NCBI RefSeq assembly: GCF_030252325.1
Contig: NZ_CP126981.1
Span: 4,774,001 to 4,838,000, forward strand
Direction of reading: 5' to 3'
DNA: 64,000 bases
Source: Candidatus Mycobacterium wuenschmannii
GTDB taxonomy: Bacteria; Actinomycetota; Actinomycetes; Mycobacteriales; Mycobacteriaceae
Numbering within the stretch: the stretch's first letter is position 1; every line of letters starts with the position of its first letter. Position numbers and translations under genes: made by a program. Shown one piece after another: positions 41,283 to 54,870 of this stretch. The notes under the pieces were generated by a model, which had not been told where the DNA came from, did no database searches, and saw only the letters and a list, made by a program, of their open reading frames with translations.

Positions 41283-41288
41283 ACACGG
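41283..41288. repeat. Candidate attL core
   Basis: ACACGG, repeated at 54865. It lies between the trmL 5' end and the integrase start. Joining the outer flanks would give attB CACCTTACACGGTAACCGG, centred on the dyad TTAC-ACG-GTAA. Short cores are usual for serine integrases. An alternative is the 9-base repeat AACACCGCG at 41289 and 55087. Confidence 0.4.
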
Positions 41289-41301
41289 AACACCGCGTAG
41301 C

Positions 41302-42888
41302 ATGTCATCCATGTCGCGGAGCGTATCTCAGCAACTTCGGGTCCTCGGGCGAGTTCGGTTGTCCGCCGACCGGGAAGAAAGCACGTCGGTCGAGCGGCAA
41401 CGCGAGGTCATAGTGCAGTGGGCCACAACCCACGGGCACCTGATCGTCGGGTGGGCCGAAGACGTCAACGTGAGCGGATCGGTCGACCCGTTCGACACCC
41501 CGTCGCTGGGGCCATGGCTGAACGACCGAGCACCCGAGTGGGATGTGATCTGCGCGTGGAAGTTGGATCGACTCGGACGAGATGCGATCAGGCTCAACAA
41601 GCTCTTCGGGTGGTGCGTCGAACACGGCAAGACGGTCGTGTCGGCCACCGAGGCGATAGACCTCGGTACGCCGGTCGGCCGGCTGATTGCGAACGTAATC
41701 GGCTTCCTGGCTGAGGGGGAGTTGGAAGCTATCCGGGAGCGCACCCGCGCGAGCCGTGCGAAGCTGCGGCAGTCCGCGCGGTGGCCAGGAGGCAAACCCC
41801 CTTACGGGTTCAAGGCCGTGCCCCGCGATGGCGGGGGGTGGATGCTAACCCAGGACCGGGAGGCCGCCTCCGTGGTCCAGAGGATCGTTCGGGACCTACT
41901 GAGCGGGGCCACGATGACCGGAGAAGCCCGCACGTTGACCGCCGAGGGTGTCTGCACACCGGCTGACCATTACCGAGCCCAGCGAGGCCTACAGCCCCTC
42001 GGGCGCCGTTGGCGGACAACGCCGCTGCGGAATCTGCTCACGTCCCCGGCCCTGTTGGGCCGCGTACACCACGACGGCGAGTTGGTCCGCGATGACGAGG
42101 GCCAGCCGATTCAGTTCGCGGAACCGCTTGTCTCGCTGGATGAGTGGGACCGGATACAGGCGTTCGTACAGGGCAACCGGGATGCCCGAAAGGACGACCG
42201 CCGATCCGAGACCAGTCTGTTGTCGGGGCTCGCGTTCTGCTTCGCTTGTGGCGGCGCGCTGCACCACGATCTGAACGTCGTGAAACGCCCGTACCGGACG
42301 TACGAGTACCGGTACCTCCGATGCAAGAACAGGTGCTCTCCTCAGATTCCGGCTGAGAAGTTGGAGTTGTGGGCCGAGGAGGAGTTTCTTAAACACTTAG
42401 GGCACCGCGAAGTCCGAGAACGTGTGTGGGTGCCCGGCGACAGCAACCAAGAGGCGCTGGCCGAGGCTGTGCGGGCTGTGGACGAACTTTCAGCGGCAGC
42501 GGGGAGGGCGACATCGGCCACGATGCGCCAACGCCTTCAGAAGCAACTCGACGCGCTCGACGCTCGGATAGCCGAACTGGAGGCCCAGCCCGCCCAGCAG
42601 GCGCGCTGGGAGTGGGTTGCAACGGGCGGCACCTACGGCGATGCGTGGGAGTCGGCTGGCACCGAAGGTAGGCGAGCGCTGCTTCAGCGATCGGGGATTA
42701 CCTTCTCCGCCAGCAGTCCTGGAGGCAAATCTCTGAATACTGACATCAACATCCCTGCCGGGGTCTACACAGAGCCGGAGCTGACAGATCAGCAACGAGC
42801 CATCAGGGAGGGGTTGGCTGATCCAAACGGCACTGGAGCAAATACCAACCCGGACGGTTCGGTGACGGTCGTCCGCTCCGGATGCTGA
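41302..42888 (+). CDS. int: Large serine recombinase (phage integrase)
   Basis: 528 residues. Catalytic domain: LRVLGRVRLSADREESTSVE, with the nucleophilic Ser in RLS, then KLDRLGRDAIRL and the long helix ANVIGFLAEGELEAIRERTR. Recombinase domain from about residue 165 (PPYGFKAVPRDGGGWMLTQD), zinc ribbon (FCFACGGAL and LRCKNRC, four Cys) and a coiled coil (MRQRLQKQLDALDARIAELE, about residues 405-425). Performs attP x attB integration without high homology. The start is the ATG at 41302 or at 41311, only 13 bases from the proposed att core, so the phage att arm overlaps the start codon. Reading starts before 41302 would run through the att site. Confidence 0.95.
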   Translation: MSSMSRSVSQQLRVLGRVRLSADREESTSVERQREVIVQWATTHGHLIVGWAEDVNVSGSVDPFDTPSLGPWLNDRAPEWDVICAWKLDRLGRDAIRLNKLFGWCVEHGKTVVSATEAIDLGTPVGRLIANVIGFLAEGELEAIRERTRASRAKLRQSARWPGGKPPYGFKAVPRDGGGWMLTQDREAASVVQRIVRDLLSGATMTGEARTLTAEGVCTPADHYRAQRGLQPLGRRWRTTPLRNLLTSPALLGRVHHDGELVRDDEGQPIQFAEPLVSLDEWDRIQAFVQGNRDARKDDRRSETSLLSGLAFCFACGGALHHDLNVVKRPYRTYEYRYLRCKNRCSPQIPAEKLELWAEEEFLKHLGHREVRERVWVPGDSNQEALAEAVRAVDELSAAAGRATSATMRQRLQKQLDALDARIAELEAQPAQQARWEWVATGGTYGDAWESAGTEGRRALLQRSGITFSASSPGGKSLNTDINIPAGVYTEPELTDQQRAIREGLADPNGTGANTNPDGSVTVVRSGC

Positions 42889-42905
42889 GCAATCCTGAGC
42901 CGTCG

Positions 42906-43625
42906 TTAGCGGTGCGGCTCGGGGACTATGTGCGCCGCTTCGATGTCGATCACAGGACTCATGCGCGTGGGGTTGAAGGCCCACCACGGCCAGAGTTTCC
43001 AGTGCAACGCCTTCTTGGCGATGGATTCCTTGATCTGCTCGGGTGCGCGGGTGGTGTCGATCCCAAGCTCCCGGAGTTCAGGACAACCGAGCGGCATCTC
43101 GATCTCGGCGCTGTCCTGAGGCGGTAAGACGAGATCCTCTTTCCACCCACCGATCGGAGCCATCGTCGGATCAGCGGGGTGGTCACCGAGCTTGCTCTGG
43201 AGGTTCTGCGGGACATCAACTCCGATGATCACCTTGTTGAGCCTGCCAGCCACTAGCCCCTCGTTCCAGACACCCGCGATAGCAGTGAGGGTGTCATGCC
43301 CCTCTTCGCAGCGACCGCGAAGCGCGATCTCGGAGTCAATCTTCATGAAAACGCCCGACTTTCGTGCCATGTCGACGGAGAGGTCGGCCTGTTGCTTAGC
43401 GATCCGCGCTGACTCCTCGGCCGTCCGCTCCGACGCTTGAGCCGTCTGCCACGAAAGCCACGCTGCGATGGCGGCGAAGATTGACGCGGTCGAAGTGAGC
43501 ACGGCCCCCAACCCGGCCAGCACCGGCTTCACGCGCGGCCACCAGCCATACAGCCGATCTCTTGTCCGCTTCAGCCGACCGCCGGATGCCGCTGCCGGAC
43601 TGCTCGGGTTGTTTGACGTTGTCAT
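42906..43625 (-). CDS. Single-pass membrane protein of the element, cytoplasmic or exported C-terminal domain
   Basis: 239 residues. After ~35 polar, basic residues (GGRLKRTRDRLYGWWPRVKP) there is one hydrophobic segment (VLAGLGAVLTSTASIFAAIA, about 35-54), then a helical stretch (TAQASERTAEESARIAKQQA) and a C-terminal domain (ALRGRCEEGHDTLTAIAGVW). No family is recognised. It is last in the leftward group tail-DUF1883-membrane protein and stands back to back with the integrase end. A superinfection-exclusion or defence role is possible by position but not shown. Confidence 0.75.
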   Translation of the reverse strand: MTTSNNPSSPAAASGGRLKRTRDRLYGWWPRVKPVLAGLGAVLTSTASIFAAIAAWLSWQTAQASERTAEESARIAKQQADLSVDMARKSGVFMKIDSEIALRGRCEEGHDTLTAIAGVWNEGLVAGRLNKVIIGVDVPQNLQSKLGDHPADPTMAPIGGWKEDLVLPPQDSAEIEMPLGCPELRELGIDTTRAPEQIKESIAKKALHWKLWPWWAFNPTRMSPVIDIEAAHIVPEPHR

Positions 43626-43699
43626 GGTTGGTTACCTCCGTTTCGAGCGGCGCCCCGAGGCGGGCGGCCCCGAATGGAGCCGCCCACCAGGGAGTTTCG

Positions 43700-43978
43700 C
43701 TAGACGCCCTGCGGTGAGAGCACCTCAACGGACGCCCGCCCACGGCCGGCATAACCGCCGTAGTCCACGGCGATGAACCAGTGCCCGTAATTCGGCACCG
43801 TGAGCACCGCCGGGGACCGCGTGTAGTTCCCGCCCCAGCAGCGATGCTGCTCTCCGCGCTGGTAGGAGCGGTAATTCGAGCTATCCAACAACCGGACGTT
43901 TGCCGCGTTGCCTTCCAGATTGACGCGGACGACCGCGCCGCGATCCTGGTAACCGAGATCGAACTTAAGGTGCTGCAT
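43700..43978 (-). CDS. DUF1883 domain protein
   Basis: 92 residues, almost entirely one DUF1883 domain: MQHLKFDLGYQDRGAVVRVN, then NVRLLDSSNYRSYQRGEQ and the aromatic end NYGHWFIAVDYGGYAGRG. The ATG at 43978 is preferred over the upstream start at 44011 because AAGGA stands 7 bases before it. The domain is a small beta-sandwich of unknown function; in some bacteria it is joined to signalling domains. It lies 74 bp upstream of the membrane protein gene and 285 bp downstream of the tail gene, so it may form a small operon with the former. Confidence 0.85.
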   Translation of the reverse strand: MQHLKFDLGYQDRGAVVRVNLEGNAANVRLLDSSNYRSYQRGEQHRCWGGNYTRSPAVLTVPNYGHWFIAVDYGGYAGRGRASVEVLSPQGV

Positions 43979-44175
43979 CTCTATTCCTTCGCCGGAAGGG
44001 TTTAGAAACACGACGCCACCTTCATGCCCTCCTATAGGCCATGAAGTTGACCAAGGTGTACCGTCCTACTGGCATTCCCCAATGCGAGGTAGGGGCGGTA
44101 ACCCTCGGCCAGTGGTCGGGGGTTTCGCTTCCGAACGGGTCGAACACTACCCCTGGGATGCGACATCAAGGCGCA

Positions 44176-44213: not shown

Positions 44214-44263
44214 AACCCTCCTTTGTAGGGTAATAGCGCGCTGTTGAATCCCCTTGATATGCC

Positions 44264-46213
44264 TTAGAGAATCCCAATCTGGCCGAGACCTTGGTTGATC
44301 TCTCGAATCCACTCCAGCGCTTTGAACGCCGGGTCCTGCGGTTCGCGGTAGCCGATCGTGATGTCCCAGCCTTTGGAACCGTCTTGGTCCCAGCCGTATC
44401 CGAGCTTGGTGACCCGCTCGACGAACACCGTGAACGGAACCGGGAACTCGGCAACCGTTGTGCCGACCCGGTTTCCGAGCCAGAAGTGGCCGTAGCCTTG
44501 CTCACCGATCAGGTAGGGACCCGCGTCGGACACCTTGATGGTGTGCGTGATGCGAGCCCGCGTAGCCCAGATCTTCGCCCGGATCGCCATGACGGCCGAG
44601 AGCGTGAACGCACGCTCGGCGCCGTCGGCCCAGCCCTCGAAGAGGTGGAAGTCCCCGAGGGAGGTCTTGGTGGACTCCAGGCCGGCCAGCGGGAGGTTGA
44701 TCCCGTCTTGCGCGGCGCGGTCGGTGCCGACCTCCATAAACGCGAGAAACACGTTCTCGTAGAGGATCTTGGCGATAGCGTCCATCACCCCGCCCAGCGG
44801 CGGCAGGTCGATCGCGGTACCCAGCCCACCCGTCGGCGCGAGAGCTGAGTTCACCAGCGACGTCAGGAAGTCCCCGGCCATGTTCACACCAGCACTGATG
44901 CCGTCGTTCACGCCAGGCATCGACTGCCCGCCGGTCAGGAAGGACGTGTCTCCGGCTTCGTTGTAGGTGAACTCGGAGGACTCGATGCCGGTCCCCGCGC
45001 CGTCCTCGAAGATGACGTGCGGGTAGCCCGGGCTGGTGCCGAGGTACTCGGGTCGGTAGTACTGCTCGGGAAACGTTGGGTCCCCGGTGAATACGTCGAT
45101 GCCCTCGGTGGTGCCGTCCGAGCCGACGTTCACGGCGGCCCGGATGAGGCCGGTCATCAGCGATCCGCCGAACGACGTTCCGGTGCCCCACTCCGAGTTG
45201 TCCACGATGTCCCAGACCAGGCAGCCCTCCCTGAGCGGGATGGCCTGCGCGATGGTCTCGATGAAGTCGTTGTCCAGCTCCCCCTGGAGATCCGAGAACG
45301 GGTGGTGGTCACCTTGCGACGGCAGGTAGCGACGGCACACGACGGTGAGCTGAGCGTCCTCCAGCACCTTCTTCGCCACGTCGAACCACGACTTGAAGCG
45401 CGAGAAGACGATGACGAGGTTGGAGTTGTCGGCGAAGAACGGGAACGGCTTGACGATGTTCCGCCACGTCCCCGGGTTGAACGACGCCGGCATCCACTCG
45501 TTGATGTCGAGCGGATTATCCGGCAGCGTCCACAGCGACGTTTCGAGCCGAAGTATGTTGACGAACAACGTAAGTAGCAAGCACCACTTCGCGGGGCCGA
45601 AGACCACCCACAGCTTCGGGAACTGGAGCTCCGGACGCAGGAACGGGTTCGCCCAGCAGAGGATGTGCTTCGCCTGCTCGAAGTCGTGTTTGAACACGAC
45701 CTCTAGGTAGGCGTCGTTCGACTTGTCCTTCTTGATCGTGTAGCTGACCATGTAGCCGGACCAGCGGGTGCCCTGTTTGTCGATCGTGATGTGGACGTTC
45801 CGCTTCTCGCGTCCGCTGAAATTCATGACCCACCGAGCCAGGTAGTGGCTCAGCGAGAGCTTCAGAGAGCAAGTGCCGGTGTCGTTCTCGATCCACTCGT
45901 AGTTCACCGCCCGCCAGCCGGCGACCTCGCCACGCAGGCGGTAGTCGCCGTCGTAGAGCTGGATCAGCGGCGGCGCGAGCCGGATCTTCTCCAGCTTCTC
46001 GTCGCGCTTCAGGACGTCCTGCCAGAGCCGCTCGTGCTCGGTCAGCCGGGTCGTGTCGTACGGCCCGTCGAGCTTCGTCGGGGGCTTGCCGTAGTACGGC
46101 AAGATGGCGCCTGATGCAGGCCCCTGATCGGGCTCTGAGGCCACGATCCTGTCGAAGAGAGCCTGCGACTCGTCGAGAGTCGAGAGTCCAGGCTCGGCCA
46201 AAGTAGTTGTCAT
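44264..46213 (-). CDS. Phage minor tail protein (Gp37-like)
   Basis: 649 residues, of the siphovirus Gp37-like minor tail family that is common in mycobacteriophages, where it is encoded after the tape measure gene. Family features are the N-terminal LIQLYDGDYRLRGEVAGWRA, WIENDTGTCSLKLSLSHYLA, KQGTRWSGYMVSYTIKKDKS and the C-terminal WDITIGYREPQDPAFKALEW. ATG at 46213 chosen (MTTTLAEPGLSTLDESQ); an upstream start at 46231 is less likely. It is the only recognisable structural gene in the element and is full length, without frameshift. In phages this protein sits at the tail tip and can affect host recognition. Confidence 0.88.
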   Translation of the reverse strand: MTTTLAEPGLSTLDESQALFDRIVASEPDQGPASGAILPYYGKPPTKLDGPYDTTRLTEHERLWQDVLKRDEKLEKIRLAPPLIQLYDGDYRLRGEVAGWRAVNYEWIENDTGTCSLKLSLSHYLARWVMNFSGREKRNVHITIDKQGTRWSGYMVSYTIKKDKSNDAYLEVVFKHDFEQAKHILCWANPFLRPELQFPKLWVVFGPAKWCLLLTLFVNILRLETSLWTLPDNPLDINEWMPASFNPGTWRNIVKPFPFFADNSNLVIVFSRFKSWFDVAKKVLEDAQLTVVCRRYLPSQGDHHPFSDLQGELDNDFIETIAQAIPLREGCLVWDIVDNSEWGTGTSFGGSLMTGLIRAAVNVGSDGTTEGIDVFTGDPTFPEQYYRPEYLGTSPGYPHVIFEDGAGTGIESSEFTYNEAGDTSFLTGGQSMPGVNDGISAGVNMAGDFLTSLVNSALAPTGGLGTAIDLPPLGGVMDAIAKILYENVFLAFMEVGTDRAAQDGINLPLAGLESTKTSLGDFHLFEGWADGAERAFTLSAVMAIRAKIWATRARITHTIKVSDAGPYLIGEQGYGHFWLGNRVGTTVAEFPVPFTVFVERVTKLGYGWDQDGSKGWDITIGYREPQDPAFKALEWIREINQGLGQIGIL

Positions 46214-46236
46214 ATAGTGTCTTTCGGGCATACAAA

Positions 46237-46264: not shown

Positions 46265-46315
46265 GCACGGTCTTTGGGTGGCGGGCCTAAGACTGTGGTG
46301 CGGTCGCGGCGGCGG

Positions 46316-46501
46316 CTACCTGTGCCAGCGGCGAGCACCTTGGACGCGAGCGTTGATCAAGCGCTCCTCGTCGGTGTACTCGATGCTGTCGACCGACTCT
46401 GTGGACTTCTTCCACGGTGGTCGGTCGCCGCCCTGGGGCTGGGCTCTGGGCGGGGGCGGCTCCGGCACGTACTCCTCGGGCCACGGTTCGCGGGCCGTCA
46501 C
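46316..46501 (-). CDS. Small proline- and charge-rich hypothetical protein
   Basis: 61 residues from a GTG that overlaps the stop of the preceding gene (GTGA). Sequence begins MTAREPWPEEYVPEPPPPRA and ends with an acidic then basic stretch (SIEYTDEERLINARVQGARR). The longer frame from 46564 would start inside the preceding gene. No family recognised; coupling to the neighbour supports it as real. Confidence 0.55.
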   Translation of the reverse strand: MTAREPWPEEYVPEPPPPRAQPQGGDRPPWKKSTESVDSIEYTDEERLINARVQGARRWHR

Positions 46502-46809
46502 ACCAGCACCTCGCCTCGCCGCCATCGCTGCCGTACGTCGCGGCGGCGGGAGATCGCCAGCCACGCCACCGGATTGGCGTGGCGCCAGCGTCGTTGGCGG
46601 TACGCCTGGTAGTCAGGCGTCCGGTTCTGGTGGTTGGCGGTACGTGCGTTGCAGCACGGTCGGCAACTGCCGTTGAGACCGCGCCACCCATCCGGGCGCA
46701 GCGTGAATTTGTCCAGCGTCAGCGGCTCTTTGTACGTGGTGCACTGCTTCAAGCCGCGCTGATAGAGCCGATCGCGGTAGTCGCGCTCGGCCTGGCTGAT
46801 CCCAGCCAT
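46498..46809 (-). CDS. Cys-motif small protein, HNH/endonuclease VII-like zinc fold
   Basis: 103 residues, starting after a perfect AGGAGGAAGAG ribosome site. The pattern K-x-C...DGWRGLNGSCRPCCNARTAN resembles the zinc-binding part of phage recombination endonuclease VII and HNH proteins (KPLxxF...DGxxxxCKxC), here with one Cys lacking (KQCTTYKEPL). The rest is very basic (YRQRRWRHANPVAWLAISRR). Nucleic-acid binding is probable; nuclease activity is uncertain because no clear His-Asn-His is seen. Confidence 0.65.
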   Translation of the reverse strand: MAGISQAERDYRDRLYQRGLKQCTTYKEPLTLDKFTLRPDGWRGLNGSCRPCCNARTANHQNRTPDYQAYRQRRWRHANPVAWLAISRRRDVRQRWRRGEVLV

Positions 46810-46879: not shown

Positions 46880-47330
46880 ATTACCGACCGATCGCACCCC
46901 CGGAGGGGGAGGGGTACCCCCCTGGGGTACCCCAGGCGGCCGGAGGCCGCCCGGCAAGCGGCGCTGCCCCGATGCCGGCAGGACCCCCGACCCCGAGCGC
47001 ACCCCCTGATGCCGAGCCACGTACCCCATCCCCTGCACCCCCGCGCACACACCCCCAACGCCGACCCGCCTGCCGGCGGCCACCCCGAGAGGTGCGTGCT
47101 GCCCTTGCCGAGGGTGCGGGGTGCCTGCCATCCCTGGCCCAGCCCTGCCCCTGCACACCCCCGCCTCTATGCCCCTACCCCTACGCCTACACCCCGCACC
47201 CCGAGGGTGGGGTGCGGTGTGCCCCGCCCTTGGCCTTACGCCCCCTTGTGCACCCCACACCACTCCTGTCTGTGGTGCTGCCACCCCATGCGCCCACGAT
47301 GCAGAGCACGGAGCGGAGCGCGCGACACGG
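46880..47330. other. C-rich tract (G-rich on the minus strand), non-coding
   Basis: About 450 bp with more than 25 runs of three to six C on the plus strand, e.g. ACCCCTACGCCTACACCCC (around 47180-47200), and few G runs apart from the left edge (GGGGTACCCC twice, 46914-46945 region, and GGCGGCC-GGA-GGCCGCC). Frames here are open only because of composition. The minus strand could form G-quadruplexes. It lies in the 630-bp gap between the leftward gene at 46809 and the rightward secreted gene at 47441. Confidence 0.65.
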
Positions 47331-47440: not shown

Positions 47441-47686
47441 ATGAAAATCACGCGATTCGCGATCCTCGCCGCAGCGGCAGGCGTAACAGCGGTTGGCCTG
47501 TTCACCACTCCGATGGCAAGCGGAGATGAACCTCCTCAGTGTTCCCAGGGCCAATACCCCACAACAGACGGATCGGGATGCGCGGGCGTGCCTGACCCCA
47601 CCAAATACGGCTGCCCGGCGGGTGACTTCAAGTGCATGTTCAATTCGATTGGGGCGCCCGGATCGAACAACAAGCCGCAACAGTAG
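47441..47686 (+). CDS. Small secreted protein with four cysteines
   Basis: 81 residues. Signal peptide MKITRFAILAAAAGVTAVGL, cleavage probably near residue 26-28. The mature part of about 54 residues has Cys34, Cys47, Cys58 and Cys65 (CSQGQYPTTDGSGC and GCPAGDFKC), enough for two disulfides. Opposite in direction to the leftward operon and with its own promoter, so it may be made in the integrated state. No family recognised beyond general mycobacterial secreted proteins. Confidence 0.75.
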   Translation: MKITRFAILAAAAGVTAVGLFTTPMASGDEPPQCSQGQYPTTDGSGCAGVPDPTKYGCPAGDFKCMFNSIGAPGSNNKPQQ

Positions 47687-47712
47687 GCCGGTCGCTTAGA
47701 TAGGAGTAGGTG

Positions 47713-48036
47713 ATGGTGATTGTTCGGGCTTTAGCGCCTGCCGTTGTCATGGCTTGGGCCGCTGTCGGGTTGGCGTCCCCGGCATCGGCCGAACTTACTG
47801 ACGGCACCTACCAGATGACGTACTTAGCTAGCTCAGGGCCGGCACCGAGAACTCTCCTCGTCACTTCGTGTGGCGTCGATTGCAAACAGGTCCAAATTGA
47901 AGGCCCATACACGCCTGAGCAGTATCACCTAAACGGAAACGCATGGACCACTTCTGACGGTACGAAGACAATCAACAACGACACTCTCGCTGGAACGGCC
48001 AACACCTGGGCTATCCAGCTAACCAAGAACGGCTGA
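47713..48036 (+). CDS. Small secreted protein
   Basis: 107 residues from the ATG at 47713 (AGGAG about 10 bases upstream; a GTG at 47710 is also in frame). Signal peptide VIVRALAPAVVMAWAAVGLA ends with ASPASA, an AxA cleavage site. The mature ~80 residues (ELTDGTYQMTYLASSGPA) look beta-rich and carry two Cys (TSCGVDCKQ). Follows the first secreted gene by 26 bp, so the two form one transcript. Function unknown; cell-envelope modification of the lysogen is a possibility. Confidence 0.78.
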   Translation: MVIVRALAPAVVMAWAAVGLASPASAELTDGTYQMTYLASSGPAPRTLLVTSCGVDCKQVQIEGPYTPEQYHLNGNAWTTSDGTKTINNDTLAGTANTWAIQLTKNG

Positions 48037-48086: not shown

Positions 48087-48467
48087 CTATCGACCGGTGG
48101 AACGCCGCTCGTCCGTCCCGTGCTTGAGTGCATGCCACTGCTGATCAGACACCCCAACCTCGCGGGCGGCTTCGTAGATCCGCCTGTCGGACCGGTAGAA
48201 CTCGGTTAGGGCGTCGTTCAACGCCACGGCGGCTAGCCAATGCTCGGTGTCTTTCGTTGCCTCGCATAGCCGTTGAGCTCGTTCCAGCTCGTAGTGGACT
48301 ACCGAGCAGATCACGCTGCACGCCTTGCCTCGGTCACGGCCGGTGCGTAGTCCCCGGCCACAACCTTCACGGACGCACTTCGGATTTCCGCCCCGGCCTC
48401 GTCGGCCCCGGCGGGGGCGGCGTCGTGGTTCATCCCCGGGCGGGAAGATCGAAGCATCTGCCGTCAC
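48087..48467 (-). CDS. Hypothetical protein with Cys cluster
   Basis: 126 residues. Very basic N-terminal part (RRRPRRGRRGRGGNPKCVRE), a Cys-rich segment (CVREGCGRGLRT, then GKACSVICSVVHYELERA) that could bind zinc, and a helical C-terminal part (ALNDALTEFYRSDRRIYEAA). ATG overlaps the stop of the preceding gene (ATGA). It ends 51 bp from the convergent secreted gene. Function unknown. Confidence 0.65.
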   Translation of the reverse strand: MTADASIFPPGDEPRRRPRRGRRGRGGNPKCVREGCGRGLRTGRDRGKACSVICSVVHYELERAQRLCEATKDTEHWLAAVALNDALTEFYRSDRRIYEAAREVGVSDQQWHALKHGTDERRSTGR

Positions 48468-48865
48468 GCTGGCCGACCGCCGTTGATCGTTCCGCCTGAG
48501 CCGCCGAGAGCGGCTTGGAGCAATTCAAGTCCGTTAAGGGCCAGATGCCCCGATGCGGCCCCTCCGCCGATGGCCTGCGTGAGCTGCTCGGGCAACGTCA
48601 ACGGTGGTTCAGCCTCTTCCTCGGCTTCGCGCTGGGCGCGGTCGGCCGCGTATTGATCCTGCCAACGGCGATCTTCGAGGAGGGCGCGAACAGCCTCGCC
48701 CCGTCGATCAGGCTCGGGCTCGGAATCGACGACGCCGCTGACTATCCCGCGCTGCTCCATCCGGCGCATCGCTTCCAGCTCGAACTCGCCGCCGATGGTC
48801 GTCGGGGCCGTCGACGGAGTGCGGTTGAGCATCCTGACAAATCGTCTCGCTGATCCTGTAGACAT
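48464..48865 (-). CDS. Hypothetical protein of the leftward operon
   Basis: 133 residues, acidic in the middle (AQREAEEEAEPPLTLPEQLT) with a long charged helix and a Gly/Ala-rich end (AIGGGAASGHLALNGLELLQ). Good ribosome site (AGGAGAACGCG). Overlaps the next gene by 4 bases. The composition resembles small accessory structural proteins of phages, but I recognise no family. Confidence 0.65.
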   Translation of the reverse strand: MSTGSARRFVRMLNRTPSTAPTTIGGEFELEAMRRMEQRGIVSGVVDSEPEPDRRGEAVRALLEDRRWQDQYAADRAQREAEEEAEPPLTLPEQLTQAIGGGAASGHLALNGLELLQAALGGSGGTINGGRPA

Positions 48866-48874
48866 CGCGTTCTC

Positions 48875-48940
48875 CTATCGATCTTTCGGGTCGGTGCGGT
48901 GCCGCATGAACAGCGCGCGGCGGCGCTCGTCGGGGGTCAT
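48875..48940 (-). CDS. Possible 21-codon gene inside the operon
   Basis: ATG overlaps the stop of the 261-residue gene (ATGA), and the frame reads MTPDERRRALFMRHRTDPKD plus one Arg before TAG. The stop lies 9 bases before the start of the next gene and overlaps its ribosome site region. It may be a real small protein or only a coupling leader that carries ribosomes to the next gene. Confidence 0.35.
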   Translation of the reverse strand: MTPDERRRALFMRHRTDPKDR

Positions 48941-49722
48941 CGCCGTGATGCCGGGGAGTTCGCGACCGGCGCCGGGCGGTTCCGGGCGATGATCTCGTGG
49001 CGGATCACGGCGGACTCCCTCAGCGTGGTCAGCTCGAAGGCGACACCCTCGCGAGCGGCGACGAACAGAACCTTGTCCAGCGCCTCCAACGTCTGGTTGC
49101 CGTTGGCCCGGTGCGCTTCATCCAGACGGGAGAGCTGGCGTCCGTCTGCGGGTCGCAGGACTCCGCGCAGCGCGGGGTCCGGCTCGGTCTGCTGACCGGG
49201 CAGGCTGGCGACCGACTGGACCCACGCGGCGACGGCGCGCAGGTATCGGGCTGCGTCTTGTGCGGCACCGAACGCGGACAGCGCGGACGGGCCGGCCTCG
49301 ATCAGCGATCGGTCGTTGAGGTCCTCGGGAAGGACGCTCACCGCGTCAACGTAGGCGGCAGCGTGCCTGACGAAATCCGGGGTCAACTGCTCGATGATGC
49401 CGGGGACGGCGGCGCTCGCCTCGCGGAGCACCGCGCGGGCGGCGGTGTCGACAGCGGTCGCCTTGGCGACCTCTAACACCGGACGTTCCTCCGCTTGGCT
49501 CAGCGACGGCAAGAGCTCGTTGGCGTAGTCGTAAATCGCCCGCTCGGCGTTCTCGGGGGTGATCCCGCTCAGGTCGAACACCGGCTGGTGTCCGATTTCG
49601 ACCCAGCGCAACGACTCAAGGATGTCTATCGCCGCCGTGAGCGGCTTCGGCAGCTTGACGCCGAGTTGCGGCCAGTCCGCGACGTTGCCGGCGATGTGGG
49701 TTGGCGTGGCGTATCCGTACAT
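48937..49722 (-). CDS. Helical hypothetical protein of the element
   Basis: 261 residues from an ATG with AGGAGA 8 bases upstream. Mostly helical and Ala/Leu-rich (VLEVAKATAVDTAARAVLRE, AAYVDAVSVLPEDLNDRSLI, LSAFGAAQDAARYLRAVAAW). The N-terminal part is MYGYATPTHIAGNVADWPQL. The frame runs on upstream to 50307, but that overlaps the winged-helix gene. I recognise no family; the size and helix content would fit a scaffold-like or DNA-associated protein. Confidence 0.7.
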   Translation of the reverse strand: MYGYATPTHIAGNVADWPQLGVKLPKPLTAAIDILESLRWVEIGHQPVFDLSGITPENAERAIYDYANELLPSLSQAEERPVLEVAKATAVDTAARAVLREASAAVPGIIEQLTPDFVRHAAAYVDAVSVLPEDLNDRSLIEAGPSALSAFGAAQDAARYLRAVAAWVQSVASLPGQQTEPDPALRGVLRPADGRQLSRLDEAHRANGNQTLEALDKVLFVAAREGVAFELTTLRESAVIRHEIIARNRPAPVANSPASRR

Positions 49723-49805: not shown

Positions 49806-50927
49806 CTATATGGCTTGGGAGGCCGCCGCCGTCTCGGCGAAAGGATCGGGCCAGTCCAACCGGGCGCCGCCCTCGTTCCACGACGGCAACTCCCAGAAGG
49901 GTTCGGCCGTCGCCAGATCGGGCGCCGCCCACTCCTGCGGCGTGTCCTGCGCTGCTCGCTGCGCTCGCACCTCTCGGTATCCCTTTCGTTCGCGGTCGAA
50001 CCGTTCGGTTGCTCGGTCGTGCCAGTCCGCCACGCCGTACTCCTCGGCTACCCGATCGCGGTCTCCGTTCGGGTCCAGCTTGTACACGGCGTTCCGTTGT
50101 CCTTGCCGGGTCAGCAGCCCGTGATCCACCAATCGGTCCGTCTGCGTTCTGACGGTCCGAAGGCATATCCCCGTTGCATCGCCCAGTACCTTGCGGGTCG
50201 CACCCTCGGGGTGCTCCAGCAGGTACTCCCAGATGCGTTGAGCGCTCTTGCCAAGGGCCTTCTGCGACCAGCACGGATGCGTTGTTAGGGGCAATAGTGG
50301 GACACACAGAGTAGTGGGGGATGTAACAACTCTGTGTGTTCGGGTATTGCCCTTAACGGGGGGCAACCAGTCGAGGTTGACCCTGTAGGTCCCGGCGTCA
50401 TCCCCGTCCCGATCAGAGGACGGGGTGACTAGTCCCTTGCGGACGAGACGCGCCAGAGCGCGGCTCACGGTGTCGAGCCCGAGCACCGCTCGTAGTGCCA
50501 GCTCTCGAACGCTGGCGTCCACGGTGTACCGGTTGGTCTCGTGGCCGAGCGTCACCAACGCGAGCGCCACGGCCCGTTCGGAAGAACCTCCTCGTCCTGG
50601 CCACGGCGCAGCTTGCAACCGCATCAGCAGCTCTCCGAGCCGCGCTCTGACGGCGCGCTCGGGGTAACCCCAGTCGTACCGCTCGTCGGCGTTGTTCCAA
50701 GCGCCCCGAAGGTTCTTATCGAACTGCCCCCGGGTCTTGAAGTCGGTCTTCGCGCCGGTGCGGTAGGTCCGGCCCAGCTCCGAGTTCCAAAGCAGGTCCG
50801 AGAACTGCTCGAAGGTCCAGTCCTGGCCGTAACACGTCCACGCCACCGACGAGACTGCCGCCCAGGTGGTTTGGAGCGTGAGGCTGCCGTCGAGCAGCCG
50901 CAGCGTCCGATCAGGTAGCCCGGACAT
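49806..50927 (-). CDS. Double winged-helix protein, candidate replication initiator or operon regulator
   Basis: 373 residues. One winged helix is at about 110-170 (SSERAVALALVTLGHETNRY, ALRAVLGLDTVSRALARLVR), a second at about 215-285 (SAQRIWEYLLEHPEGATRKV, GICLRTVRTQTDRLVDHGLL). The N-terminal region (TTWAAVSSVAWTCYGQDWTF) and the acidic Trp-rich tail (FWELPSWNEGGARLDWPDPF) are not recognised. Two winged helices in one chain is the layout of plasmid Rep initiators and of some phage-satellite proteins; this is inference. The start overlaps the preceding gene by 17 bases. Confidence 0.75.
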   Translation of the reverse strand: MSGLPDRTLRLLDGSLTLQTTWAAVSSVAWTCYGQDWTFEQFSDLLWNSELGRTYRTGAKTDFKTRGQFDKNLRGAWNNADERYDWGYPERAVRARLGELLMRLQAAPWPGRGGSSERAVALALVTLGHETNRYTVDASVRELALRAVLGLDTVSRALARLVRKGLVTPSSDRDGDDAGTYRVNLDWLPPVKGNTRTHRVVTSPTTLCVPLLPLTTHPCWSQKALGKSAQRIWEYLLEHPEGATRKVLGDATGICLRTVRTQTDRLVDHGLLTRQGQRNAVYKLDPNGDRDRVAEEYGVADWHDRATERFDRERKGYREVRAQRAAQDTPQEWAAPDLATAEPFWELPSWNEGGARLDWPDPFAETAAASQAI

Positions 50928-51075
50928 GCTCGGTGCCTTTCAAGGCCACGTCGATCTCATCTCGCAGCGCGGCCAGGGCCGGCGCATCGAACAGTAGGAA
51001 TCGCGAAGTGCCAACGGGGGAAACGCGATACGTCGTTGCTCGGCGATCGCGGTCCCACCGTTTCTCGATCGTCAC
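50911..51075 (-). CDS. Small hypothetical protein
   Basis: 54 residues from a GTG that overlaps the stop of the preceding gene (GTGA). Sequence TIEKRWDRDRRATTYRVSPV, then LLFDAPALAALRDEIDVALK. The longer frame upstream overlaps the TTG-started gene in another frame and is rejected. Overlaps the winged-helix gene by 17 bases. Confidence 0.6.
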   Translation of the reverse strand: MTIEKRWDRDRRATTYRVSPVGTSRFLLFDAPALAALRDEIDVALKGTEHVRAT

Positions 51076-51245
51076 GCGATCAACGCCGCCTCGATCACGG
51101 CCAGCCTTTGGCGTGAGTCTCGCAGCGCGAAGCGGTACTTCGACTCGTTGATCCGGGCGCAGTGGAGACACCCGCCGTTGGCGCGGCGGTCCTGCGGCCC
51201 TCGGATGACGTGCCGCCCGCTGCGGCACAGTTGCGGTTGAGGCAA
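51072..51245 (-). CDS. Small Cys-motif protein with TTG start
   Basis: 57 residues, too short to stand out by length. A GAAGGAGGG ribosome site lies 6-7 bases before the TTG at 51245, and the stop overlaps the next GTG (GTGA). The product reads MPQPQLCRSGRHVIRGPQDR, then RANGGCLHCARINESKYRFA: C-x(n)-H plus C-x-x-C, like small zinc-ribbon proteins common in mycobacteriophages. The tight fit at both ends supports it over the alternative frame from 51364. Confidence 0.65.
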   Translation of the reverse strand: MPQPQLCRSGRHVIRGPQDRRANGGCLHCARINESKYRFALRDSRQRLAVIEAALIA

Positions 51246-51294
51246 TGGAGCCCTCCTTCTCGATGACTCATCGTTATTTCGGAAATGAAAGCCA

Positions 51295-51331
51295 AGCCCG
51301 CCAACGGAGTTCGTCTGGTCCGGTGACGGGC
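51295..51331 (-). repeat. Repeat related to the 49750 hairpin
   Basis: AGCCCGCCAACGGAGTT (51295-51311) matches the hairpin arm and loop at 49750 (AGCCCGCCAGCGGAATT) in 15 of 17 bases, and TGACGGGC (51324-51331) matches the right arm. Between them 12 extra bases are present. It is in the 136-bp gap upstream of the TTG-started gene. Confidence 0.6.
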
Positions 51332-51381
51332 GGGCGCTCGACAGGTTGTGCCCAGGAAGACCACCCGGAGCGCACGGAGGG

Positions 51382-52170
51382 CTAGCGACCTAACCGGCGC
51401 TTGCCCTCTGCACCCTTAGTGAGCAAATCGACCATTTCGAGCCGCACCGAACTGCGATCTCGGTTACACGCCAGCCGCGCCCGGTGCCGGACCTCGATAT
51501 GGGCCGGCTTCATGTCGTTGGCCTGGCGGTTGTCCCTCCAGCACCGCGTCTCGGGATAACGGACCTGTCGCCGGCAGCTCGATAACTCGTGCTGCTGGTA
51601 CCACCCGTCCTCATCGACGGGCCACGCGCGTCCCTTACGTCGCCCCGGCTGACGCCTGAGGTTGTTTCCGATACGCGTGCACTCTCCTGGGCAGTACCTA
51701 CGCCTGGTCTTGTCGTTCGGCAATGCTGACCCGCACACGGCGCACAGGGCTGCCGCGACGGACCACCGGGCGTGCTGGTCCACGTGCCACGTTCCGCGAG
51801 GCATCGTGACTCTTTGATCATCGGCACGCTTCCCGCCGTACCGCGCTCGGCGGACGCGGTGCCCGATGTCCTCGCCGTGCCAGTAATCCCTCTCGCCGCT
51901 GAAACCCCAGCCTCCACCGCTGCCCGCGTCACGCTCGTCGTCTTGCCACGCCCGTCCCGGTTGGCAGTAGTCAGGGCTTCCAGCCCCCTTCGCGTCCCGG
52001 AGCACCTGGCGGTACGTGTAGGGCTTGCTGGCAACGCCCACTCCGGTCGGCCAGGCTGTGCAGCCGGCCTCCGCCCACCGTTCGAAGCCTCGGTCGTCGT
52101 AGGCGACCAGAGAGTGTGGCGCCGAAGTCCCGCGCTCTGGTGAGTTCCCTTCGATCGCTGCGGCTTTCAC
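51382..52170 (-). CDS. Zinc-finger hypothetical protein
   Basis: 262 residues from a GTG that overlaps the preceding stop (GTGA). The N-terminal half is rich in Gly, Trp and charged residues (ERWAEAGCTAWPTGVGVASK, GGGWGFSGERDYWHGEDIGH). A Cys4-type motif CAVCGSALPNDKTRRRYCPG with a further CTR follows at about residues 142-165, then very basic sequence. Likely nucleic-acid binding. The region before 52170 in the same frame belongs to the preceding gene's span and is not used. Confidence 0.7.
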   Translation of the reverse strand: MKAAAIEGNSPERGTSAPHSLVAYDDRGFERWAEAGCTAWPTGVGVASKPYTYRQVLRDAKGAGSPDYCQPGRAWQDDERDAGSGGGWGFSGERDYWHGEDIGHRVRRARYGGKRADDQRVTMPRGTWHVDQHARWSVAAALCAVCGSALPNDKTRRRYCPGECTRIGNNLRRQPGRRKGRAWPVDEDGWYQQHELSSCRRQVRYPETRCWRDNRQANDMKPAHIEVRHRARLACNRDRSSVRLEMVDLLTKGAEGKRRLGR

Positions 52171-52523
52171 TTCTGCGGCTCCCGCATGACGCCGTGCGCC
52201 GCCTCCCACGCATCCCGTATGACTCGGGTGATGCTGTGGTCGTTGGCGACCATCCGCCACTGCGGTCCTGCGTAGAACGCGATCCGGATCGGATAGTCGG
52301 GGTTGTACTCGCCGGGGGGTTGTTCCCACTCGGCGAGAAGCAGCAACCCGAACTGGCGGACGTACGCCTGGGCACGCTGCCACGAGTCGTCGCTGTCCAT
52401 CGACAGCGGCCCGCGCTCTACCCACAGATGCGTTCCGCCGGCGTCAGCCGACACATGGATCTGGTCGACGGGGTTGTCCTCCAGAATCACTGCCATCCGC
52501 ATCCCGTCACGGTCGTAGTTCAC
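52167..52523 (-). CDS. Hypothetical protein of the leftward operon
   Basis: 118 residues, GTG start overlapping the preceding stop (GTGA). The domain MAVILEDNPVDQIHVSADAG, WVERGPLSMDSDDSWQRAQA and YPIRIAFYAGPQWRMVAND looks like a small alpha/beta fold. No family recognised. Confidence 0.7.
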   Translation of the reverse strand: MNYDRDGMRMAVILEDNPVDQIHVSADAGGTHLWVERGPLSMDSDDSWQRAQAYVRQFGLLLLAEWEQPPGEYNPDYPIRIAFYAGPQWRMVANDHSITRVIRDAWEAAHGVMREPQK

Positions 52524-52693
52524 CCCTCTCGCCGACCCATCTTCTCCATCAGCGCGGCCAATTCCTTTGCGCCGTCGCCGGTTATCACGTCCAACAGTTC
52601 TTGAATGCTGTTGCCGTGGACCTCGACCCGAGGGGCGTCCGGTCTCTGGCCGCCCCGAAAGGTCAGAACGAACTTGCTGTCGGTGTCAGTCAT
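52520..52693 (-). CDS. Small hypothetical protein between two overlapping genes
   Basis: 57 residues: MTDTDSKFVLTFRGGQRPDA, then PRVEVHGNSIQELLDVITGD and a helical end GAKELAALMEKMGRREG. The ATG shares one base with the preceding stop (TGATG), and the stop overlaps the next start (GTGA). Strand-then-helix pattern; no family recognised. The overlaps at both ends make it a convincing gene despite its length. Confidence 0.7.
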   Translation of the reverse strand: MTDTDSKFVLTFRGGQRPDAPRVEVHGNSIQELLDVITGDGAKELAALMEKMGRREG

Positions 52694-53064
52694 CACGCCG
52701 CCACCTCGTAGACCGTCAGCTCGGCACGGCCGAACACCATGACGCCGGAGTCAGCCAACTCACGGGACAGGTCACCGGGAACTAGTCCCTCGGTGAAGTC
52801 GGCCAGCCGCTTGTAGCGCGGGCCGTCCAGCTCATCGTGGTCCCGTAGTTGAACGCTGCGGTAGGTGAACGCCCGGCGGGTACCTGTAGCCCGCTCAGTC
52901 ACCCACCCGGCGAACAGCCAATGCGGCTCGCAGATCGCCAGCTCGATACCGATGCCCCGGACGGTTCCCGGCTGCGCCGAGCCTCGGGGCGGGTAGCCGG
53001 CCTCGTCGAGCGCGTCCCACGCCGCCGTCTCGGCGAAGTGCAAAAGTCTTTCTACCGTGTCCAT
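52693..53064 (-). CDS. First gene of the leftward operon, hypothetical protein
   Basis: 123 residues: MDTVERLLHFAETAAWDALD, then IGIELAICEPHWLFAGWVTE, and FTYRSVQLRDHDELDGPRYK. Two helices then a beta-rich part. It is the first gene leftward from the control region that it shares with the divergent repressor gene, so it is expected to be an early, repressor-controlled gene. Function unknown. Confidence 0.7.
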   Translation of the reverse strand: MDTVERLLHFAETAAWDALDEAGYPPRGSAQPGTVRGIGIELAICEPHWLFAGWVTERATGTRRAFTYRSVQLRDHDELDGPRYKRLADFTEGLVPGDLSRELADSGVMVFGRAELTVYEVAA

Positions 53065-53165
53065 GTCTGCTCTTTCTGTCGATGTGCCCTGACCGCTACT
53101 AGCCCGTCCAACATATGCTTGGCAGGCCGTTAGTGCGTGACCGACGTTACATCGTTGCTAACGCT

Positions 53166-53195
53166 TTGGTCAACCCATGTCGGCCAAGGTAGTAT
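53166..53195 (+). promoter_or_regulatory. Promoter of the element's repressor gene
   Basis: TTGGTC (53166-53171), an 18-base spacer and TAGTAT (53190-53195). The ATG at 53202 is 7 bases after the -10, so the mRNA begins on the start codon. The gap to the leftward operon (53065-53201) also has GTTAG (53130) and CTAAC (53157) in opposite directions, possible operator half-sites. Confidence 0.65.
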
Positions 53196-53201
53196 CGACT
53201 C

Positions 53202-53768
53202 ATGGCGGGCAGGCAAAACCCCAAAGTGGTTATCGAGCAGCGGATCGGCCCCTGGCAAGTCGCCCTGGCGTGGCCTGACGATGCGGACCAAGGCGGGCCA
53301 GTTGAAATCTCGATTAAGCCCTACGCCGATGCCACCGACGATGAATTGATCGGCGGACTCTCGTCTACCGTTCTGCGGCATATCGACTTTCGGGCTGCCC
53401 GTGAGAAGTGGGTGGCGATCAAAGCTCATGGCCTTGACCGGCCTGACGGATTGGCAACGCTCCGGGACGCTCAACTGCGGAAGGTGTTAGAACGCGATGG
53501 GGTCACCGACACATATCTGGCGCTTCTGGCGAACGCTTACATTCAGTTGACCCGAGCGGGTGAGAGCTCGGTGTCCAAGCGGCTCGCGGAGGCAACCGGA
53601 AGATCCCCTGACACGATCAAGCAACACCTACATCGAGTCCGCAAAGAGGGAATGCTGACGGCAATCTCGGGCAAGGCAGGCGGACTCCTCACCATGAAGG
53701 CGGTCGAGATCATCCGCGCCGCAGGCGCCGCGCAACGCAAACGCGATGAGGCCGGCTCCGCCTCCTAG
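53202..53768 (+). CDS. HTH protein, likely repressor of the element
   Basis: 188 residues. The N-terminal ~110 residues (KVVIEQRIGPWQVALAWPDD, then FRAAREKWVAIKAHGLDRPD) are not recognised. The C-terminal part has a helix-turn-helix: SSVSKRLAEATGRSPDTIKQ, HLHRVRKEGMLTAISGKAGG. It is the only rightward gene beside the divergent leftward operon and has a leaderless consensus promoter, the usual position and expression mode of a lysogeny repressor. Alternative: an activator or excise-like regulator. Confidence 0.7.
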   Translation: MAGRQNPKVVIEQRIGPWQVALAWPDDADQGGPVEISIKPYADATDDELIGGLSSTVLRHIDFRAAREKWVAIKAHGLDRPDGLATLRDAQLRKVLERDGVTDTYLALLANAYIQLTRAGESSVSKRLAEATGRSPDTIKQHLHRVRKEGMLTAISGKAGGLLTMKAVEIIRAAGAAQRKRDEAGSAS

Positions 53769-53825
53769 CGCTGGATTGTGTGTGAGCGGCCGGGCAGTTT
53801 CAGCAAAAAATACTAAGAGTGTGAT

Positions 53826-53897
53826 TTAGCACTCGATCCGGTCGGGTGCTAAGGGTACGATCTCCTCAGCGCAGCAAGCCCCAGGTCCATGCCTGGG
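53826..53897 (+). promoter_or_regulatory. Palindrome and hairpin in the leader region of the DUF1508 gene
   Basis: TTAGCAC (53826-53832) and GTGCTAA (53846-53852) form a perfect 7-base inverted repeat around 13 bases; the TTAG/CTAA ends recall those in the repressor control region. CCCAGG-TCCATG-CCTGGG (53880-53897) is a hairpin. The 299-bp gap 53769-54067 has no supported protein gene and could carry a long structured leader or small RNA. Confidence 0.45.
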
Positions 53898-54067
53898 AGG
53901 CTCGGGTTCCTGAGGCTTGTGCTTCTACTTGGAGTGTAGAAAGCCAAGCTAACAGGAAACAATGTGTCGTGGAAGGATTTCCAGCACATTGTGACCAGGG
54001 TTTCACCTTGCCGCGTTGCTGGTCGCGCCCAAATTGGGCCCGACCGTAAACGGAAGGATACTGAAAC

Positions 54068-54388
54068 GTGTTGACCTTTAAGGCCGACTACGACCGAGGG
54101 GGCCACCCAAGTTGGTGGCTCACAAGCAGCAACGGCGAAGAGGTTGGGTGGGCAGGGCAATCCTTCGCCTCGCTCAGCAGTGCCAAGCGTGCGGCGGAGT
54201 CATTCAAAGCGGGCGCCGCAACCGCTAGGTACGAGGTGTACAAGGACACCGGCGGCCACTACCGCTGGCGTGCGTGGAGGTCGAGCGACAAGGTCGCCTC
54301 TTCGGGCGAGTCGTTCTACAGCGAGTTCAACGCCAAGCGCGCAGCTGAGAACGTCCGAGTCAACGCCAGGACGGCTGTAGGGCCGTAA
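54068..54388 (+). CDS. Tandem DUF1508 (YegP-like) protein
   Basis: 106 residues built of two DUF1508 repeats: DRGGHPSWWLTSSNGEEVGW with SLSSAKRAAESFKAGA, and DTGGHYRWRAWRSSDKVASS with SEFNAKRAAENVRVNA. Start is GTG with GGAAGGA about 9 bases upstream. The family is common in bacteria and phages, with unknown function. Followed by a strong hairpin at 54405. It is a candidate cargo gene expressed in the integrated state. Confidence 0.82.
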   Translation: MLTFKADYDRGGHPSWWLTSSNGEEVGWAGQSFASLSSAKRAAESFKAGAATARYEVYKDTGGHYRWRAWRSSDKVASSGESFYSEFNAKRAAENVRVNARTAVGP

Positions 54389-54404
54389 CGCCGATCACGC
54401 GAAA

Positions 54405-54432
54405 CACCCCCTGGGCGAAAACCCAGGGGGTG
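54405..54432 (+). terminator. Strong hairpin after the DUF1508 gene
   Basis: CACCCCCTGGG (54405-54415), loop CGAAAA, CCCAGGGGGTG (54422-54432): a perfect 11-base stem 17 bases after the stop. No T-run follows, as often in mycobacteria. Confidence 0.7.
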
Positions 54433-54533
54433 CTCCGTGTCGTGCGGCTCTAGTGAGCGGGGCCGGGTGGTGGCCATGACCGTCGTCGGCCTCTTTCGGC
54501 CGGCTTGTCCACGACGGCCGGGGGCGCGTCGGG

Positions 54534-54770
54534 CTAACCAATCGAGTAGCGCGGCGGCGCGGGCGTAATCCCGGCCTGCTTCTCTAGCGCAACGAGACGA
54601 TTTTCGATCTCCATCAAGTTGCCGACAACGACGGCGACGACCACTTTCGCGGTCTCGTCGGGGGAGACGTTGGCGGCGGTCGCTCGTGCGACCATCGTCT
54701 GGATGTTTCGCGAGAGATTCAGCTCTTCCGGGATGTCCAAATTGAGGAAACGCTCTAGTTGCTCAGCCAT
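54534..54770 (-). CDS. Small helical hypothetical protein
   Basis: 78 residues, MAEQLERFLNLDIPEELNLS, then TAANVSPDETAKVVVAVVVG and a C-terminal coiled-coil-like NLMEIENRLVALEKQAGITP. No family recognised. It is the last gene before the proposed right end of the element and faces the DUF1508 gene. Confidence 0.6.
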   Translation of the reverse strand: MAEQLERFLNLDIPEELNLSRNIQTMVARATAANVSPDETAKVVVAVVVGNLMEIENRLVALEKQAGITPAPPRYSIG

Positions 54771-54864
54771 CCTCTCAACGTATAGACGGCATCTGACAAC
54801 CTGCCCTGTCCAGCTTTCTGCGCTTCGTCATGCCCGAGGAGAAAAACAGCAGCCTGAACACAAC

Positions 54865-54870
54865 ACACGG
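54865..54870. repeat. Candidate attR core
   Basis: ACACGG, the second copy of the proposed core. To its right the sequence TAACCGG and 230 bp of AT-richer DNA would be the native upstream region that trmL and the sensor kinase shared before integration. Confidence 0.4.

Follow-up and report, generated by a model that had tools for sequence, protein, structure and literature searches.

The window analysed here is a 64-kb stretch (64,000 nucleotides) of the Candidatus Mycobacterium wuenschmannii genome, which is a single contig of 5.10 Mb. It carries an integrated element of ~13.57 kb, at about 41,281-54,855, in the attachment site (attB) of spoU. The element has defined ends and its own large serine integrase, genes for a complete virion are missing, and it is very probably an integrated phage satellite. 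It encodes a baseplate hub, has a cohesive-end (cos)-type packaging site and, in the slot where related satellites hold scaffold and capsid genes, codes for a protein of 261 amino acids (aa). A preliminary description made from the letters alone had proposed a compact satellite with a serine integrase, a helix-turn-helix (HTH) repressor gene divergent from an operon, a double winged-helix protein, one tail gene and many small, mostly intact genes. Profile searches and gene calls bore out all of these, as well as the lack of recognisable capsid, portal, large terminase and tape measure genes (E ≤ 1e-4). The same description denied the element a packaging module; this was wrong, as the cos-type site shows.

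The junctions were placed by eye against the spoU start regions of 22 relatives, one of which (G019) is occupied. They lie close to 41,277-41,282 on the left and to 54,851 on the right, the comparison leaving the crossover unfixed at base level; the limits proposed earlier, 41283..54870, agree to within about 20 bases. On the left, spoU is kept from about codon 4-6 on, and on the right the sequence resembles the lost spoU start region. The start of spoU is attB-29, and a serine-integrase vector was predicted to insert at the sixth codon of a SpoU-like gene (PMC10654092). The same site is occupied in G189, G062, G019 and G039, and three more elements bordering spoU come from two other genera (L076, L080, L083). 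The G189 element matches that of the window in integrase (78%), DUF1883 protein (78%) and hub (82%), and the G062 element in the hub (about 66%). Both the G189 and G062 elements have capsid and hub genes, whereas the window element has a hub gene without a capsid gene.

The cos-type site is 51 bases long and lies directly upstream of a gene for an endonuclease VII (EndoVII)/HNH-like protein. The regions upstream of the small terminase gene share a motif composed of a CCCCAGGGG-like inverted repeat, a C-rich stretch and then GACCGG-CGGT-ATGCG. A model was built from 19 such sites of other satellites, leaving out the window, duplicates (L026, L038) and two regular-expression matches judged not to be cos (L152, L162). 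The window site scored 27.4 bits (E 4.4e-6), compared with 8.3 bits for the next best match and 9.5 bits for the best of 60 dinucleotide shuffles (64 kb). At E < 1e-3 the model found a site in 15 of the 20 elements with the 261-aa protein and in 27 of the 29 with a capsid gene, 17 of these 42 having trained it. Sites were missing at this limit from L081-L085, L164 and the WillG element, L083 and L084 giving weak matches (E 0.057 and 0.009). Sixteen other loci without a cos match at E ≤ 0.1 are a soft control, because the set is mixed (the G069 satellite L183, a G193 piece that ends before the site (L037), phage or prophage stretches and unclear loci). The second element of G069 reached only 10.4 bits and was not counted. 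The joined ends of phage Sheen scored 46.1 bits with the satellite model, while the body of Sheen gave nothing at the limit. By blastn, the window site reached the last base, at the cohesive end, of the Phacado (E 0.007), Kratark (0.03), SWU2 (0.09) and HINdeR (1) records, each weak alone, among the best 40 rows of 347 matched records. Taken together, we read the window site as the cos of a mycobacteriophage group that is Sheen-like and that we take to be cluster A. The element and its helper group would share a packaging signal, one of the features by which satellites are recognised, and cos-dependent packaging by a Sheen-like helper is quite probable. The deposited ends of WillG (L022) can be read as the same motif lacking ~20 bases compared with its relatives; the model gave no match there, joined ends included.

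Residues 59-655 of the hub protein matched PDB chain 9d93_Oa ('Baseplate hub, gp25', E 9.9e-280), presumably of phage Bxb1, and chain 8zdo_s ('Baseplate hub protein (gp18)', E 8e-47), and the hub is 72-73% to Sheen gp29. The frame is open throughout. Ratios of nonsynonymous to synonymous substitution rates (dN/dS), estimated by the Nei-Gojobori method (NG86), were 0.24 to G189 and 0.31 to G062, with 0.14 for the integrase; judged from these ratios, the hub evolves under constraint, that is, purifying selection. Compared with the PDB phage hub and with Sheen, the protein has ~58 additional N-terminal residues; by eye, this addition repeats a helix-like segment found at the N-terminal end of the phage protein. 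The G062 hub is likewise extended, as is that of G189, where the extra residues lie in frame ahead of the called start. Among 47 hub places (E ≤ 1e-20, 43 of 396 genomes), a close match that begins within the first ten residues was found only in the window, G189 and G062. At a distant place (G009, 26%) the match begins at residue 11, and the first 70 residues had no meaningful phage match (best E 0.2). The next five best places comprise three beside large terminase and portal genes (G231, G322, G289), an apparent remnant prophage (G371) and a satellite (G069) whose hub has no clear extension. Mycobacteriophage hubs are described as trimeric closures of the tail tube through which ejection is gated (PMC13252515, preprint). 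We lean slightly towards the view that the satellite hub would be built into particles. Four satellites carry a hub and nine a tape measure by profile (L022, L041, L042, L043, L064, L081, L082, L146, L165); replacing helper tail parts may therefore be common in actinobacterial satellites. The satellite tape measures have 641-855 aa (stop to stop) versus 1126 aa in Sheen, so that shorter tails may be expected. The G371 locus (L189/L185) appears to be what is left of a Sheen-like prophage: it still has genes for the hub, the distal tail and the major tail protein, and its repressor matches the Sheen one at 62%.

Integrase, hub and cos could in principle be what a complete, Sheen-like prophage left behind after deletions. 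Integrase and hub have relatives in Sheen-like phages, and in Sheen itself the two genes converge as they do here, but with four further tail genes between them; the shortened EndoVII-like gene would also suit such an origin. The preliminary description had taken the same genes in a complete phage as the sign of a deletion derivative. This holds for single genes, since complete phages have related integrases (54-56%; that of RhynO 55.8%) and hubs, but not for the set, which was not found in them. By tblastn, neither the 261-aa protein nor the double winged-helix protein had a match in 50,697 phage records, and the 126-aa protein matched only eight 10.9-kb elements of M. aichiense, all of one kind. 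The 261-aa and winged-helix proteins recur with similar neighbours in other ~10-kb elements, both ends and most frames are intact, the hub appears to be under purifying selection, and its extension was not seen among closely matched phage or prophage hubs. The window does not appear to have a known-phage gene order of the kind expected of a complete or recently deleted prophage. A deletion derivative is thus highly improbable, and the earlier preference for a satellite over a broken prophage holds. In a megablast search 372 phage records matched, all mycobacteriophages; among the 20 matches listed, the match lay over the hub.

The element is one of a large and mosaic family of ~10-kb satellites whose kin include the isolated 10.9-kb M. 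aichiense elements such as WillG. A search with its integrase covered 297 genomes of the genus, and the neighbourhood was examined at 15 of the best places. Many related integrases sit in ~10-kb elements with a capsid, a scaffold-like protein, a small terminase and head-tail genes, as in WillG, whose capsid copy is Phage_capsid (PF05065). All 20 elements with the 261-aa protein were fetched and set beside 29 capsid elements (28 genomic ones and WillG), absences holding within the stretches fetched. A weak capsid match in L034 (3e-7) was left out, that in L162 (1e-7) was counted, and L166-L170 were not used as satellites. By profile, the 261-aa elements have a serine integrase in 17 cases, the repressor-like HTH protein in 12 (window included), a small terminase in 9, the 126-aa protein in 7, EndoVII in 6, a tape measure in 4, a stopper in 3 and an adaptor in 1; none has a capsid, scaffold, large terminase, portal, protease, major tail or LysB gene. 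The corresponding numbers for the capsid elements are 28 for the small terminase, 27 for the scaffold, 20 for the adaptor, 19 each for the stopper and the 126-aa protein, 4 for the tape measure and 2 for the hub. The double winged-helix profile matched 3 of the other 19 261-aa elements and 2 of the capsid elements. Portal, protease and large terminase were found in 0 of the 49 (single-sequence Sheen profiles). The preliminary description had suggested looking for the gene set at other attachment sites, and a comparable set recurs at another site: the second element of G069 (~10-11 kb; other integrase, 31%) has a 261-aa-like protein, a 126-aa-like profile match, EndoVII and a hub, and capsid, terminase and portal were not found in it by profile. 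Several genomes hold two or three different satellites or remnants of the family (G395 with L143, L144 and L145; G179 with L063 and L142; G069 with L032 and L183). A scan of viral contigs for the integrase returned nothing, which is weak evidence of absence because short peptide patterns were used.

The 261-aa protein and the capsid were never found together by profile: 20 elements have the former and 29 the latter, without overlap. Its 122-aa partner matched 14 of the 20 and 0 of the 29. Within the genus, 10 of 396 genomes had the protein; a search of 401 genomes of the family with a 9-row alignment gave 11, from 6 of 31 genera (G621 weakly, 2.5e-4), and the own genome is part of both counts. 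A second listing, drawn by small terminase from the same genome sample, gave 103 of 396 genomes at E ≤ 0.001, and the 40 strongest places (E ≤ 2.3e-29) were examined. Of these, 27 have a capsid, 5 the 261-aa protein, 0 both and 7 neither, and 1 is a phage; the hypergeometric chance of zero overlap is 0.0014, assuming independent places and ignoring relatedness. Among the 26 places that are neither query rows nor phage, 19 have a capsid, 0 the 261-aa protein by profile and 7 neither. G092 and G185 belong to these seven, and the other five look by eye like remnants or incomplete elements. A 267-274-aa protein occupies the capsid slot in G092, G185 and the second G069 element, the last being in no count. 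Alignment of these proteins to the 261-aa family by hhalign gave 73% over 218-228 columns with a 20-row alignment and 5% with the 9-row one; they are likely, although not proven, distant relatives.

In the same phage records, tblastn gave no match either for two other, divergent proteins of the 261-aa family or for one of their likely distant relatives. The 20 family members had no convincing Pfam or PHROGs match; weak matches to Pfam CoaE (E 0.0035, one member) and phrog_20697 (E 0.011, two members) were judged to be chance. Against the PDB, the profile found a sole chain, a polyketide synthase at E 2, and no capsid or scaffold chain. Scans of genome and viral contigs for the family with short peptide patterns returned nothing, a weak result since the genome scans missed known members. 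For three pairs of relatives, dN/dS (NG86) was 0.18-0.31 for the 261-aa protein and 0.16-0.42 for its partner. Because it occupies the scaffold and capsid place, the 261-aa protein should act on head assembly, and we tentatively propose from this slot that it acts on the capsid.

The same slot and the mutual exclusion with capsid genes would also be expected if the 261-aa protein were itself a true, very divergent capsid protein and the satellite, a real one, built its own shell. Its length, about 245-270 aa versus mostly 273-291 aa (two of 361), would not be out of place. However, hhalign gave a probability of 0.2-0.3% against the satellite capsid profile, and the low-confidence structural model is mostly helix. 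Moreover, adaptor and stopper are usual with a capsid and rare with the 261-aa protein. Such a capsid is distinctly unlikely. For the 261-aa protein, its 122-aa partner and the distant relatives alike, homology to capsid or scaffold was rejected, with hhalign probabilities of just 0.1-0.3%.

The explanation that best joins these observations, and which we consider likely, is a satellite that would be packaged by a Sheen-like helper into particles with the satellite hub, the 261-aa protein remodelling the helper capsids. Infection by a Sheen-like phage, or its induction, would lead to excision and replication of the element, perhaps from the winged-helix protein. The helper terminase would cut the element at its cos site, and the DNA would enter heads of helper coat protein. 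Diverted by the 261-aa protein and its 122-aa partner, this coat protein would form heads that suit the satellite, and tails would become chimeric as the helper hub gives way to that of the satellite. Hub and 261-aa protein might alternatively be anti-phage devices that poison tail and head assembly of the helper, mobilisation being secondary; tail-assembly interference is known in satellites and phage-inducible chromosomal islands (PICIs) (PMC11364771, PMC12987554). However, the helper-type cos site argues for packaging and, beyond its extension, the hub matches functional phage hubs from end to end, so that a purely hostile use is improbable.

Several observations weigh against packaging into remodelled capsids with a satellite hub. 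The hub was found by profile in just 1 of the 20 261-aa elements, that of the window. In the cos comparison, many blastn rows cover the C-rich part and nothing else, within a few hundred bases of the record end and at up to seven places in one phage record, so that by itself this part is not specific. The window site also departs from the others just after the cut, with AATCCG for ATGCG. No Sheen-type portal was found in the own genome (best E 0.13), and the helper would therefore come from outside or be of another type. The small-terminase list was not blind, since all 5 of its 261-aa places and 8 of its 27 capsid places are rows of the 17-row query. AlphaFold gave the 261-aa protein alone a mean predicted local distance difference test (pLDDT) score of 42 and was not used; with the fold prediction useless, its capsid role is drawn from position alone. 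The dN/dS values are simple estimates, and that of the 261-aa protein between the window and G585 is 0.53, at high divergence. Finally, nearly all capsid elements and 9 of the 20 261-aa elements have a small terminase, which has no match in the window element; together with the loss of the HNH half of the EndoVII-like protein, this could be the start of decay.

These losses would fit a capsid satellite of the G189 kind that has lost its capsid and small terminase genes and is now a decaying remnant or a carrier of accessory genes. The G189 element, the closest relative, has capsid, scaffold and small terminase, none of which is matched in the window. However, the slot is filled by a gene pair, and both genes are present in 14 of 20 comparable elements by profile, with the dN/dS values given above. 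Likewise, L057, L058 and L059 are without a small terminase by profile and keep an EndoVII-like gene adjoining cos. We consider a decayed capsid satellite unlikely and retain packaging by a Sheen-like helper as the better account.

The features of the element are collected in Table 1. In the EndoVII-like protein the Cys-rich half is retained, and the HNH half present in relatives is gone. The double winged-helix protein is possibly a replication initiator, given its weak profile matches; a BLASTP match to the WillG HTH protein (24% over 143 aa, E 0.012) was not used. The leftward operon comprises genes at 50911-51075, 51072-51245, 52167-52496, 52520-52693 and 52693-53064, the stretch 51382-52166 being poorly resolved. 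The genes beginning at 52167 and 52693 are 77% and 61% to their G189 counterparts, and the 57-aa protein at 52520-52693 matches the phage class II ribonucleotide reductase family phrog_364 (E 4.6e-7). At E ≤ 1e-4, the window had no match to satellite profiles for capsid, scaffold, small terminase, adaptor, stopper, tail terminator and tape measure, nor to single-sequence Sheen profiles for large terminase, portal, protease, capsid, major tail and LysB, the one lysis gene profiled. A satellite capsid was not found in the own genome, in a search without positive control, and neither was a small terminase.

Table 1. Features of the integrated element, in window coordinates.
Feature	Position	Strand	Evidence
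attL region, 5' end of spoU (about codon 6)	41277..41300	.	By-eye comparison with 22 spoU start regions
Large serine integrase (start codon uncertain)	41302..42888	+	PF00239 7.8e-24, PF07508 6.7e-11, phrog_95 8.8e-116
239-aa protein of unknown kind	42906..43625	-	No Pfam match; phrog_11860 at E 0.0074 only
DUF1883 protein	43700..43978	-	PF08980 1.4e-24; counterpart in G189 element
Baseplate hub with N-terminal extension	44264..46231	-	PF14594, phrog_110, PDB 9d93
EndoVII/HNH-like protein, shortened	46498..46809	-	phrog_1035 1.1e-10; comparison with relatives' sequences
cos-type packaging site (candidate)	46880..46930	-	nhmmer, model built without the window
Two small secreted-looking proteins, probably accessory	47441..48036	+	Signal-like N-termini; no Pfam or PHROGs match
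126-aa satellite marker protein	48087..48467	-	Shared with M. aichiense 10.9-kb elements
122-aa partner of 261-aa protein (longer start at 48865 possible)	48464..48832	-	Profile
261-aa protein in capsid slot	48937..49722	-	20 elements, none with a capsid gene by profile
Double winged-helix protein	49806..50927	-	MarR-type HTH matches; weak replication-initiation phrogs
Leftward operon of small genes	50911..53064	-	Gene calls
Repressor-like HTH protein, divergent	53202..53768	+	phrog_11473 'HTH DNA binding protein' 3.3e-38
DUF1508 protein	54068..54388	+	PF07411 1.6e-8
78-aa protein of unknown kind	54534..54770	-	Gene calls; Pfam and PHROGs run
attR region	54843..54870	.	Similar to spoU start region of empty sites

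The element is flanked by spoU (40824-41312, minus strand) on the left and by a large gene from 55104 (plus strand) on the right, which we take to be a sensor kinase gene; the spoU-kinase gene order is that of M. tuberculosis. At 41277-41312 the insertion hands spoU a new N-terminus from element DNA, and possible start codons of spoU and the integrase overlap head to head. Near the cos site, several satellites have unrelated opposite-strand genes, some with signal-like N-termini, which mark an accessory-gene spot. Examples are 47441-48036 of the window, 12781-13843 of L058, 6869-7977 of L059, 6086-7391 of L062 and 1723-2531 of L063.

Satellites are often found by a capsid gene or by known core genes; elements of the window type carry neither and can be missed. 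The shared cos-type site offers a way to find such elements and a pointer to the helper group, and the capsid-slot protein allows a direct test of a possible new way to change capsid size. It is conceivable, though slightly less likely than not, that the 261-aa protein founds a new capsid-remodelling family in at least six genera of one actinobacterial family, where it would replace the scaffold-capsid pair of sister elements. With swappable hub, tape-measure and connector genes, these would be modular satellites that choose which helper parts to replace.

The nearest described elements are WillG, Anya, Caroline1 and their relatives (GenBank, including OR387111-OR387121; ~10.87 kb), which share with the window element an integrase (52.6% to that of WillG), the 126-aa marker and the size class. 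WillG has small terminase, adaptor, stopper, capsid and tape measure genes, the last so named in GenBank, whereas the window has the 261-aa, EndoVII-like and hub genes instead. Neither the WillG elements nor this family turned up in a search of the open literature, which did not reach most bioRxiv preprints or papers behind subscriptions. The candidate mycobacterial PICIs of PMC10654092 are likewise integrated mycobacterial elements with phage genes, with the attB-29 site in common. In that survey they are defined by an integrase and a major capsid protein; window-type elements would be missed by this rule because it requires a capsid gene, and the window element has no recognisable one. Capsid-forming PICIs resemble the related satellites that bring their own capsid and some head-tail genes. 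They also encode portal, protease and both terminases (PMC10690885), which the window element lacks by profile. With the capsid redirection of P4 and the Staphylococcus aureus pathogenicity islands (Sid, CpmB, Ccm), the likeness is in the proposed function of the 261-aa protein, whose profile found no consistent Pfam family and one PDB chain at E 2.

The phage-inducible chromosomal island-like elements (PLEs) of Vibrio cholerae have a large serine recombinase (PMC6002521), and their TcaP protein makes small shells from helper coat protein (PMC10945586). PLE11 brings its own tape measure, chaperone and baseplate hub into chimeric tails, and that paper states that a tape measure had not been reported from any other satellite (PMC12987554). 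The preliminary description had held that satellites with a serine integrase and a tail gene were not a standard described class; such elements have since been described in V. cholerae, with hub and tape measure. The likeness to PLEs lies in the large serine recombinase and, for PLE11, in the own hub; a hub is present in the window, and remodelling by the 261-aa protein would complete the parallel. PLEs differ in their contractile-tailed helper ICP1 and Gram-negative host, and the two systems were likened by description rather than by direct protein sequence comparison. Satellites with a tail gene were known before, because MiniFlayer has a tail fibre gene (PMC10690885) and PLE11 a hub. As far as our searches go, the novelty lies in how the parts are combined, in the setting of actinobacterial siphophages, in the link that cos provides to a helper group and in the capsid-slot protein, which is uncharacterised.

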